A stretch of 63,769 nucleotides of DNA from an uncultured Treponema sp. (GTDB lineage Bacteria > Spirochaetota > Spirochaetia > Treponematales > Treponemataceae): contig NZ_CAMCEC010000005.1 of NCBI RefSeq assembly GCF_945873775.1, positions 1 to 63,769 of the forward strand, written 5' to 3'. Numbering within the stretch: the first letter of the stretch is position 1; each line of letters starts with the position of its first letter. The translations under genes were made by a program, and so were the position numbers. Shown piece after piece: positions 13,097 through 16,902 of the stretch. A model generated the notes under the pieces. It was not told where the DNA came from and made no database searches. It saw only the letters and a program-made list of their open reading frames with translations.

Positions 13097-13993
13097 TTAT
13101 TTCTTGTCCTGCCTTAAATTCGGAATCACTTCTGCCAAAACTATTGCGCAGAAAATCAAGGCGCAGCCAACGAACATTTTTGGCGTGAGGCGTTCACCAA
13201 GGAAAATGCAGCTGCAAAGAACTCCGAAAACGCTTTCCAAAGAAAGAAAAAGAGAAGCCAGCGCAGAAGGAACATATTTCAATCCGACGTTCTGAAGCAC
13301 AAAGCAAACCATTGAACTGAAAATTCCAAGGTAAAGCATGGAAACAACAACCGTTGAATTTTTTATAAGTGAAATGTCAAAGTTTCCGTCTAAAAAAGGC
13401 GCAGTTACAAATCCCAGAACTCCGCTAGCCGCAAACTGAAAAAATGTAAGAAGAATCACATCTTCTTTCTTTACAAAAAATGAACCTGCAATTATATGAA
13501 GCGCAAAGAAAATTCCACAGATTAAAGTAAGAACATCTCCGCGGTTCATGATGTACCAGGCACCGTCTCCGTCAAGAGCAAGCAAGCCGATTCCTGTAAG
13601 AGCCACAGCCGCCGCAACCCAGACATACCAGCCCGGCTTTTTCTTAAAAACTGGCCAGCCGATAAGCGGAACAAGAATTACATAAAAAGTTGTAAGGAAA
13701 GCGTTTTTTCCGGCAGTTGTAAAATTGCAGCCAATTGTCTGGGTAAGATAGCCCAAAAACAAAAGAACTCCCAAAAAGCATCCGTGAAAAAAAATGTCTT
13801 TATTTAAATGCTTAAACCGTTTTATAAAAATCAAGCCGAAACAGACAGCGGCAATTGTAAAGCGGATTGCAACCATCCAAGTAGGTCCGACAAAATCCAA
13901 GCTGTCTTTTACAACAACAAAAGCAAATCCCCAGATTGCGGCAGTAAGAACCAGTCCCGCTCCAAAAATAATAGAAAGTTCACGTTTTTCCAT
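13097..13993 (-). CDS. EamA/DMT-family transporter
   Basis: A 298-residue inner-membrane protein with about ten transmembrane helices in two EamA repeats (AAIWGFAFVVVKDSL in the first, LTLICGIFFALHIIAGSFFV opening the second). DMT proteins typically export amino acids or metabolites; the substrate cannot be told from sequence. The second repeat ends VPSALASLFLSLESVFGVLCS...GERLT, a strong family signature. There is no Shine-Dalgarno: TATCTT ends 7 nt before the ATG, so the mRNA is probably leaderless. A palindromic insertion element abuts the promoter. Confidence 0.9.
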   Translation of the reverse strand: MEKRELSIIFGAGLVLTAAIWGFAFVVVKDSLDFVGPTWMVAIRFTIAAVCFGLIFIKRFKHLNKDIFFHGCFLGVLLFLGYLTQTIGCNFTTAGKNAFLTTFYVILVPLIGWPVFKKKPGWYVWVAAAVALTGIGLLALDGDGAWYIMNRGDVLTLICGIFFALHIIAGSFFVKKEDVILLTFFQFAASGVLGFVTAPFLDGNFDISLIKNSTVVVSMLYLGIFSSMVCFVLQNVGLKYVPSALASLFLSLESVFGVLCSCIFLGERLTPKMFVGCALIFCAIVLAEVIPNLRQDKK

Positions 13994-14030
13994 AGCGGAT
14001 AAGATAATAAGTTTTCAGTCTAAAGGTCAA
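13994..14030 (-). promoter_or_regulatory. Leaderless-type promoter of the DMT gene
   Basis: TTGACC (14025-14030), an 18-bp spacer and TATCTT (14001-14006) lie on the minus strand, with only 7 nt between the -10 box and the ATG. Initiation 6-8 nt past the -10 would fall on the start codon. Most of the -35 lies inside the 11-bp direct repeat flanking the adjacent insertion. Confidence 0.65.
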
Positions 14031-14261
14031 TACGGCCATGGCAAACGCATTATAAATGTATTCAGCATAAAACTGGCTCCCAGGCACGGTTTCCTGGTTC
14101 AAAATCGCACAATAATGCGCTACACACTGATTGTTGCAAAGTAACTATAGAATTACCCGCTCACGCGGTCGCAACAATCAGAGTGTTTTTGCCCAAGGAA
14201 CCGTTCCCTCGCGCAAACTTTACTTAAATTATTTATAATGCGTTTGCCCTGTCAATACGGC
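14026..14261. mobile_element. MITE-like 214-bp palindromic element with 11-bp flanking repeats
   Basis: The 11-bp sequence GTCAATACGGC occurs at 14026-14036 and 14251-14261, as expected for a target-site duplication. Between them, GGCAAACGCATTATAAAT (14040-14057) and its perfect inverse (14231-14248) form terminal inverted repeats. Two further inverted blocks lie inside: ACGGTTTCCTGG against CCAAGGAACCGT, and CACACTGATTGTTGC against GCAACAATCAGAGTG with one mismatch. The whole element could therefore fold into a long imperfect hairpin. It encodes no protein, so it would be non-autonomous; the source transposase is not in the window. Confidence 0.75.
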
Positions 14262-14278: not shown

Positions 14279-14311
14279 AAAAAAACTCCGTGCAGAAAAA
14301 TCCACACGGAG
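14279..14311 (-). terminator. Intrinsic terminator downstream of glgP
   Basis: Minus-strand hairpin CTCCGTG (14305-14311), a 12-nt loop, CACGGAG (14286-14292), then seven T residues. It lies 144 bp past the glgP stop, with REP-like sequence in between. Confidence 0.8.
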
Positions 14312-14343
14312 CCGAAACGGGTTATTCAAAAAGCAACTTTTAT

Positions 14344-14421
14344 GTCATTTTCGGGCTTGTGTCAAAAAGTCTTTGCCAACACAAAGTTTATTAGATTGCC
14401 GGATCAAGTCCGGCAATGACA
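14344..14421. repeat. REP-like pair
   Basis: A complete palindrome (ATTGCCGGA, TCAAG, TCCGGCAAT, then GACA) spans 14393-14421. A degenerate half copy, GTCATTTTCGGGCTTG, sits at 14344-14359 in the opposite orientation. Both lie between the glgP stop and its terminator. Confidence 0.7.
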
Positions 14422-14454
14422 TTTTAACTTATTGAACAAACCCAGTGCCAAAAG

Positions 14455-16902
14455 TTATTTTACAACGACTTTCTTCAAGTGCCAGATGTCTTTTACGTAG
14501 TCTTCAATTGTGCGGTCGCTTGAGAATTTTCCGCTGTTTGCAATGTTGATTAAAGCTTTTCTTGCCCAGGCTTTTTTGTCAGCATATTCAGCGGCAAGTT
14601 TTTCGTGAGCCTTAACATAAGAATCAAAGTCAGCAAGAATAAAGTAAACATCAGGCTGCTGTCCTTCAACACCGTAAACAATCGAATCGTGAAGTTCCTT
14701 GAACAAAAGTCCGCTTGGATCGTAAGTTCCGTCAACAAGCTGATTTACAACTTTTGCAAGAGATGGATTTCTGTCAAGATATTTTGTAGGATTGTAAGAA
14801 TGCTCCTGCTTCATCTTGACAATTTCGTCCGCCTTAAGACCGAAGATAAATGCGTTGTCTTCTCCAGCCTCTTCAACGATTTCAATATTTGCGCCGTCCA
14901 AAGTTCCGATTGTGAGCGCGCCGTTCATCATAAACTTCATGTTTGAAGTTCCAGAAGCCTCAAATCCTGCTGTTGAAATCTGCTCGGAAACATCAGAAGC
15001 CGGAATGATTTTTTCTGCAACTGAAACGCGGTAGTTTTCAACAAACACAACACGAAGCTTGCCACGGACGCGGCGGTCATTGTTAACTCTTTCTGCAACA
15101 GTGTTGATAAGCTTGATAATTGCCTTTGCGCGGCGGTAACCAGAAGCTGCCTTTGCGCCAAAGATAAATGTGCGTGCAGGAGGATTATAGCTTGGATCTT
15201 CCACAATCTTGTTATAAAGATACATGATGTGGAACACGTTCAAAAGCTGTCTCTTGTATTCATGCAAACGCTTTACCTGTGTATCGAAAATGCTTTCCGG
15301 GTCAAGGAATTCATTCTGGCTATGCTTTAAGTATTCAGCAAGCTTTTCCTTGTTGTGGCGTTTGATTGCAATGAGTTCTTCCAAAGAAGCGTCGTCATCA
15401 ACATATTTTTCAAGGCCTTTGAGAAGAGAAAGCTCTTTTTCCCAGCCGTGTCCGATTCTCTTTGTAATGAAATCAGAAAGTTCTGGGTTTGCGAACAAAA
15501 GCCATCTTCTCTGTGTAACGCCGTTTGTCTTGTTGTTGAATTTCTCTGGATAAATTTTGTACCAGTCCTTAAGTTCCTGCTCCTTAAGAATTTTTGTATG
15601 AAGGGCAGCAACGCCGTTTACGCTGAAACCTGCATGAATTGCAAGCCATGCCATATAAACTTTTCCGTCATGGATAATTGCCATGTGGTTCTGCTTTTCA
15701 TAATCGTTAGGGAACTGCTGGCGAAGCTCAATTACAAAGCGGCGGTTGATTTCTTCAACAATCTGATAAATACGCGGAAGAAGTTTCTGGAAAACTTCGA
15801 TTGTCCATTTTTCCAAAGCTTCTGAAAGAATTGTGTGGTTTGTATAAGCGAAAGTTTTCTGAACAACGCTCCAAGCATCGTCCCAGCCCACATTGTATTC
15901 ATCAATGAGAATTCTCATAAGCTCAGGAATTGCAACTACTGGATGAGTGTCGTTAAGCTGAATAACATGATATTCAGGGAACTTTGAGAAATCAGCTCCG
16001 TAAGTATTTACAAAGTGATGAACCAAATCCTGAAGAGATGCAGAAGTAAAGAAATACTGCTGGCGCAAACGAAGTTCTTTTCCCATAGGACCATTGTCAT
16101 TTGGATAAAGAACACGGCTGATATTCTCAGCATCGTTCTGGCGTTCAACTGCGCGGTGGTACTGCATATCATTGAAAAGCTGAAGATCGAATCCGTTAGG
16201 ACTTGAAGCCTGCCACAAGCGCAATGTGTTTACATTGTTTGAACCGTAAGCAACAATCGGCATATCGTAAGGAGTCGCTGTAATTTCCTCTGCGTTTTCA
16301 AGATAGAATCTGTCCTGTCCGTCAGGAGTTTTTCCATATTTAATCTGTCCGCCGAATTTTACAGTTACAGCAAGGTCGCTTCTTTTTACTTCCCAAGGAT
16401 CGCGGTGCTTAAGCCAGTTGTCAGGGAATTCAACCTGCTCGCCGTTGATGATGTGCTGCTCAAACATTCCGTATTCATAGCGGATTCCGTATCCATGTCC
16501 TGGATATTCAAGAGTTGCAAGTGAATCAAGGAAGCAAGCCGCAAGACGACCAAGACCGCCATTTCCAAGACCAGCATCAGGCTCTTCGTCTTCAATAAAG
16601 TCATAGCTGATGTTCATGTCTTTAAGGACATCTTTCACCTGCTCCATAATGCCAGAATTAATCAGGTTGTTTCCCAGCGCGCGTCCCATCAAAAACTCTG
16701 CGCTCAAATAATAAAGCTGCTTTGTAGGCTTAGCTTCATACTCTTTGCGGGTATTCATCCAGTTTGGCATGATAATTTCAAGCGCACTCGCGCTTACTGC
16801 ATCAAACAAGTCGTGCTTATTTGCCTGTGTGATGTCTTTTCCATACTGGCGGCGCAGACGGGCTGTGAGATTTTCCTTAAACTGCTCTGCATCAAAAGTC
16901 AT
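14455..16902 (-). CDS. glgP: Glycogen/alpha-glucan phosphorylase
   Basis: An 815-residue enzyme that releases glucose-1-phosphate from alpha-1,4-glucans using phosphate and pyridoxal phosphate. Characteristic segments are YLSAEFLMGRALGNNL near the N-terminus, EDEEPDAGLGNGGLGRLAACF, the N-linked region VKRLHEYKRQLLNV, and the PLP-lysine region ASGTSNMKFMMNG. The length is normal for the family. The start is supported by GGAGG 8 nt upstream. It lies 103 bp after glgX with its own promoter region, containing a perfect 12-bp palindrome that looks like a LacI-family operator. With glgX it forms a glycogen breakdown unit. Confidence 0.97.
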   Translation of the reverse strand: MTFDAEQFKENLTARLRRQYGKDITQANKHDLFDAVSASALEIIMPNWMNTRKEYEAKPTKQLYYLSAEFLMGRALGNNLINSGIMEQVKDVLKDMNISYDFIEDEEPDAGLGNGGLGRLAACFLDSLATLEYPGHGYGIRYEYGMFEQHIINGEQVEFPDNWLKHRDPWEVKRSDLAVTVKFGGQIKYGKTPDGQDRFYLENAEEITATPYDMPIVAYGSNNVNTLRLWQASSPNGFDLQLFNDMQYHRAVERQNDAENISRVLYPNDNGPMGKELRLRQQYFFTSASLQDLVHHFVNTYGADFSKFPEYHVIQLNDTHPVVAIPELMRILIDEYNVGWDDAWSVVQKTFAYTNHTILSEALEKWTIEVFQKLLPRIYQIVEEINRRFVIELRQQFPNDYEKQNHMAIIHDGKVYMAWLAIHAGFSVNGVAALHTKILKEQELKDWYKIYPEKFNNKTNGVTQRRWLLFANPELSDFITKRIGHGWEKELSLLKGLEKYVDDDASLEELIAIKRHNKEKLAEYLKHSQNEFLDPESIFDTQVKRLHEYKRQLLNVFHIMYLYNKIVEDPSYNPPARTFIFGAKAASGYRRAKAIIKLINTVAERVNNDRRVRGKLRVVFVENYRVSVAEKIIPASDVSEQISTAGFEASGTSNMKFMMNGALTIGTLDGANIEIVEEAGEDNAFIFGLKADEIVKMKQEHSYNPTKYLDRNPSLAKVVNQLVDGTYDPSGLLFKELHDSIVYGVEGQQPDVYFILADFDSYVKAHEKLAAEYADKKAWARKALINIANSGKFSSDRTIEDYVKDIWHLKKVVVK

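Follow-up and report, generated by a model that had tools for sequence, protein, structure and literature searches.

The segment we describe here is very probably an ISAs1-type MITE. What is new about it is its cargo, a structured core restricted to one genus that is carried by the MITE and yet also exists without any transposon ends. It was found in the window, a 63,769-nucleotide stretch of DNA from an uncultured Treponema sp., where it lies between a carbohydrate phosphorylase gene and an EamA/DMT gene, 43 bp upstream of the latter. Our high confidence in the ISAs1 assignment covers the MITE itself and does not extend to the role of the core, which we treat separately.

The element and its copies

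From a comparison of its copies, the MITE extends from 14037 to 14251, a unit of 215 bp that runs CATGGCAAACGCATTATAAAT...ATTTATAATGCGTTTGCCCTG; the ends shared among copies are CA[G/T]GGCAAACGC...GCGTTTGCCCTG. The unit is short, non-coding and bounded by terminal inverted repeats (TIRs) of 21 bp with one mismatch (95% complementary). A first-pass annotation made from the letters alone had described perfect 18-bp inverted ends, and these are borne out, as 18 nt of arms that extend to 21. The 11-bp flanking repeats it reported are also real (GTCAATACGGC, at 14026-14036 and 14251-14261), but the target duplication is 10 bp long (TCAATACGGC); the eleventh base, a G, belongs to the flank at the left and closes the TIR at the right. 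The long hairpin it proposed holds as well. There is an inner inverted pair (Table 1), and the folding energy of the 214-nt strand is -74 kcal/mol, compared with -43.4 +/- 4.2 in shuffles (z -7.2, 0 of 200).

Table 1. Features at the insertion site, in window coordinates.
Feature	Position	Strand	Basis or remark
EamA/DMT transporter gene, downstream of element	13097..13993	-	PF00892
Predicted DMT promoter, TTGACC-N18-TATCTT	14001..14032	-	Untouched by the insertion; present in the empty-site relative
Target duplication, left copy, TCAATACGGC	14027..14036	.	Repeat comparison; single copy in the G084 empty site
Left TIR, CATGGCAAACGCATTATAAAT	14037..14057	+	Third base T here, G in most copies
Structured core, covarying RNA-like repeat	14065..14225	-	Model R1 match, 162 bits; covariation; TIR-less copies elsewhere
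Apical core: stem 14122-14137/14171-14186 round a small GC hairpin and a conserved CTATAG stretch	14122..14186	.	
Promoter-like TTGACA-N16-AATAAT at the right junction	14228..14255	-	Consensus match only; reads into the element toward DMT
Right TIR, ending GCGTTTGCCCTG	14231..14251	-	ISAs1-family elements L170 and L197 have the same TIR
Target duplication, right copy, TCAATACGGC	14252..14261	.	Repeat and copy comparison
Carbohydrate (glycogen) phosphorylase gene, upstream of element	14455..16902	-	PF00343

The same annotation had suggested a search for further copies, and they turned up both in relatives and in the host genome (2.59 Mb), which holds 11 near-full-length copies (90-100% identity to the query) and one internally deleted copy of 101 bp, at 12 separate places. 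Exact end repeats of 10, 11 or 12 bp flank eight of the 12, and the remainder match at 7 to 9 of 10 positions; duplications of 11-12 bp occur in two host copies. Half of the host copies (6 of 12) lie between divergent genes. In a set of 90 distinct copies drawn from many genomes, exact end repeats nearly always measure either 0-2 bases or exactly 10 (27 copies), with one copy at 11 and one at 12. As a control, left ends were paired with the right ends of other copies, which gives about 0.15 per 90 at 9 or more matches in 10. Most loci with the same TIR in the genome collection are labelled Treponema or Spirochaet-, and the viral contigs searched for the TIR yielded one exact match (L196). Many exact TIRs (L092-L195; assemblies JALEPQ, CAMOWQ and CAMGTC) sit 20-180 bases from contig ends, so the repeat family probably breaks short-read assemblies.

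A structured core with and without transposon ends

Within the TIRs is a core of about 160 bp that occurs without TIRs in other Treponema. Five genomes (G023, G004, G166, G062 and G052) each hold from 16 to at least 40 cores with sharp edges, and in 31 of 93 sampled cores the flanks are no more TIR-like than control sequence. Of 296 genomes of the phylum, spread over 138 genera, 16 contain the core according to a covariance model, and all 16 belong to this one genus. The model still recognises more diverged relatives (L167 and L089) that keep the layout on other stem sequences. A search of Rfam with E values up to 1 gave no match to the core.

In alignments of 40-51 diverse copies, 28 of 41 pairs have double compensatory changes and 96.9% of cells are paired. 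All measures of covariation far exceed slid controls and beat all 500 shuffles, a control that carries a caveat for related sequences; the copies share ancestry. The consensus fold is much the stronger on the minus strand, at -57.8 kcal/mol versus -21.5 on the plus (alignments of 40 and 51 rows). A fixed stem pattern fits 64 of the 93 cores and makes a four-base apical loop readable in them; on the minus strand 58 of these 64 loops conform to GNRA, and many of the remaining cores have a shorter loop. Wobble pairs on the minus strand number 46 G-U against 8 A-C cells, an asymmetry on which we place no weight, since the copies are kin and the structure comes from the same alignment. We take covariation, loop and strand stability as signs that constraint acts on an RNA, the argument from strand being suggestive. 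Between the cores at one orthologous position in G166 and G062 (L286 and L287), both arms of the variable stem have changed together, as though the stem had been exchanged as a unit.

Where the TIR-less cores lie bears on what they might do. With neighbours taken from simple ORF calls, 31 of them divide into 16 between co-directional genes, nine between convergent genes, two between divergent genes (both with overlapping ORF calls) and four unclassed, and most start 6-40 nt past a stop codon. Several of these sites are common to two or three species. At one orthologous site, in G166, the outer stem alone is present, as a short plain hairpin; at another, in G023, the core interior has given way to an ordinary terminator-like hairpin. 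These two sites offer comparative hints that the core may act on mRNA ends or stability. Candidate empty sites of TIR-less cores turned out to have lost internal sequence, to carry short hairpins instead, or to be so diverged that the ends of a unit could not be placed. At two shared sites the core stands in opposite orientations in different species (L300 in G166 versus L304 in G023; L065 in G166 versus L064/L066).

Many intergenic copies, a conserved stem-loop and a position at the 3' ends of genes or between co-directional neighbours are features that the core has in common with ERIC- and REP-like repeats. Covariation, loop and position suggest that the core can likewise work as an RNA hairpin at 3' ends or between cistrons. 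We infer that the MITE is the dispersing form of the core.

The TIR-less cores might instead be old MITEs in which TIRs and duplications have decayed while the core was kept by selection or gene conversion. Some traces of ends do survive, for example a TIR-like right end at L304 (5 of 20 mismatched) and degraded TIR-like ends on both sides of L297 (5 and 4 mismatches), and some cores occupy one and the same site in two or three species. Against this, the distribution is bimodal, with the flanks of 31 of 93 cores at control level, and TIR-less cores lie mostly just past stop codons whereas half of the host MITEs lie between divergent genes. On balance we regard wholesale decay as rather unlikely. 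A bolder reading is tentative but possible. The core would be an undescribed class of Treponema structured RNA, GNRA-capped, strongly covarying and kept at 3' ends, that exists both as a stationary form and as cargo of an ISAs1 MITE, the ISAs1 ends acting as vehicles for lineage-specific palindromes.

Ends shared with ISAs1

The TIR ties the MITE to a transposase family. It is common to the MITE and to elements that encode an ISAs1 transposase (L170, L197 and L199, and in part L198). One of these, L170, is a 1201-bp element with a broken transposase and the exact MITE TIR at one end. Another, L197 (in G030), is 1266 bp long, is bounded by a nearly identical TIR and has an intact frame of 397 aa, with a score of 360 bits against NF033564 (for which the cut-off is 70) and the domains PF13808 and PF01609. 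A close relative of the host, G145, has at least ten ISAs1 copies of 1278-1279 bp with the terminal 14 bp of the TIR, and four of its 10 autonomous copies have perfect 10-bp duplications, from which we took the duplication length of the family. When the G030 transposase was run by tblastn against the TIR-bearing loci, L170 alone matched at full length, with a 38-aa piece in L117. Two inverted ISAs1 copies in G145 (L229, G145:C1:2122000-2128200) hold one 10-bp duplication reciprocally (AACATTTCCA/TGGAAATGTT), which suggests an inversion between them.

ISAs1-family ISs (NF033564; DDE_Tnp_1 with DDE_Tnp_1_assoc) thus resemble the MITE in their ends, CAGGGC(A)AACGCAT..., and in a 10-bp duplication; they differ in having a transposase gene and a length of about 1200-1280 bp, against 215 bp and no gene. 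Beyond the ends we detected no sequence common to the MITE and the ISs, and in intact autonomous elements a few inner positions of the TIR differ from those of the MITE. The first-pass annotation was right to call the element MITE-like and non-autonomous, as copies, empty site and transposases with matching TIRs (which it had proposed seeking, and which L170 and L197 supply) all support. Its statement that the element is unlike listed families went too far: the TIR and the length of the duplication both indicate the ISAs1 family. In the literature we found nothing specific on ISAs1 MITEs or on palindromic repeats of Treponema.

By this assignment an ISAs1-family transposase, the presumed mover judging from the shared ends, would act in trans on the 21-bp TIRs. 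Insertion would occur at a 10-bp staggered cut, and repair of the gaps would yield the duplication TCAATACGGC. The NF033564 search found no ISAs1 transposase in the host genome, a draft of 49 contigs in which a copy could be missed; the element is therefore probably dormant there. A MITE need not share its genome with an autonomous partner.

Elements of the IS4 family (IS231 type) have ends that start CAT or CA and duplications of about 10-12 bp. An origin there can draw on the left end in the window, which begins CAT, and on the two host copies with 11-12-bp duplications. It is nevertheless very unlikely, since CAT is a variant, most copies beginning CAGGG, and since the transposases found with the MITE TIR belong to the ISAs1 family. 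The consensus end and those transposases indicate ISAs1, and we dropped IS4.

The TIR of the MITE is not tied to one interior. In genomes that carry the label Bacteroidetes or Bacteroidales it also bounds elements of 136-216 bp, and the interiors of these are unrelated. Among these, L094:4857-5072, L137:692-903 and L177 (a Bacteroidetes-labelled contig) enclose a different long palindrome, TGTCCCGTTAGGGACA..., that folds at about -95 to -100 kcal/mol. It is this quite different palindrome between the same TIRs that leads us to the tentative idea that ISAs1 ends may capture palindromes. A further family of 145-bp MITEs with the same TIR, from a Bacteroidales MAG (L101, L121, L130, L151, L153, L159 and L169), is AT-rich and lacks a structured core; tandem insertions are seen at L130 and L153.

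One site in three forms

The site can be compared in two close relatives. In the sister genome G084 (also the genome of locus L126), the flanks are 96-98% identical to those of the window and the element is absent. The site reads gtctaaagg-TCAATACGGC-ttggataaaccc, with the duplication sequence present once, and is thus the exact empty site that the first-pass annotation had proposed looking for. Seven of the 12 host sites are contiguous in G084, and at the window site and four other host insertions the flanks overlap there by exactly 10-12 nt. The site of L010 is also empty in G145.

In G145 the same place, with the same duplication, is occupied by an element of about 335 bp in which a second inverted-repeat element of about 120 bp is nested. 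At least five further copies of the 335-bp form occur in G145, several with 10-bp duplications of their own, so the composite form moves too. The nested element (GGATGTCCAATAAGT...ACTTATTGGACATCC; L271-L276) sits at one fixed inner position in at least six copies. At most sites G145 is filled and its flanks are 97-100% identical to those of the host. At the window locus the host flanks are closer to the empty G084 than to the filled G145. The history of this site is not simple, and recombination, precise loss and a second insertion are all candidates.

That the segment is instead a fixed regulatory hairpin of the phosphorylase-DMT region, a terminator or attenuator, is suggested by its strong fold and by its intergenic place between co-directional neighbours, but is extremely unlikely and as an origin refuted, given the orthologous G084 site, where it is absent and one target copy remains, and the 11 other copies that adjoin unrelated genes; a later regulatory role is possible for what we take to be an ISAs1-type MITE.

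What the insertion may mean for the DMT gene is a related matter. The candidate promoter of this gene matches 9 of 12 consensus bases on the minus strand, from 14030-14032 down to 14001, and its region is kept in G084, where the element is absent. The first-pass annotation held that insertion had duplicated the TTGACC of the -35. This does not stand, because the original is preserved, there is no copy of TTGACC on the far side, and the new motif there, TTGACA, joins the TTGA of the duplication to the CA at the end of the element; the link is a formal one. With 11 of 12 bases, the right-junction sequence is promoter-like as a consensus match, which is no proof of function. What the insertion did was to swap out all sequence upstream of the predicted DMT core promoter while the promoter itself was retained.

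Two other structures lie in the interval between the MITE and the phosphorylase gene. A minus-strand, terminator-like hairpin with a T run (14284-14313) is conserved in G084 and G145. Next to it, just right of the MITE, is a second palindromic repeat (14316-14447, GGGTTATTCAAAAAG...TGTCATT...AATGACA...CTTATTGAACAAACCC), parts of which match at least 47 places in the host genome, and of which G145 and G084 carry differing versions at the site.

Relation to known repeats

The nearest published parallel we found is QMITE2 of Coxiella burnetii, a small palindrome-carrying MITE with direct repeats. It is 150-190 bp long, has direct repeats of 7-11 nt and a REP palindrome inside, lies mainly in 3' UTRs and intergenic regions and is linked to an sRNA (PMC5896051). 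The likeness is one of description and concerns another bacterium; the palindromic core of Treponema can be found without TIRs as well. ERIC, RUP, Correia and YPAL are short non-coding intergenic repeats with strong stem-loops, and ERIC affects mRNA stability (PMC2229807). Their ends are mostly TA, whereas the Treponema MITE has a 10-bp duplication and ISAs1 ends; the core, for its part, shows no clear duplication at its edges. Palindromic candidate structured RNAs from human microbiomes can be read on both strands, some of them REP-like and many terminator-like (PMC8040213). In the part of that source considered here there is no palindromic example from Treponema, and its resemblance to the core is by description rather than by motif.

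The element is a clear case of a MITE: three close genomes show its site filled, empty and with a nested form, and a transposase family can be assigned to it. It also connects a DDE-transposase MITE with a structured repeat that lives without transposon ends as well. The pair could reveal how 3'-end elements of the ERIC and REP kind arise and spread, and whether transposons ferry functional RNA structures between genes.
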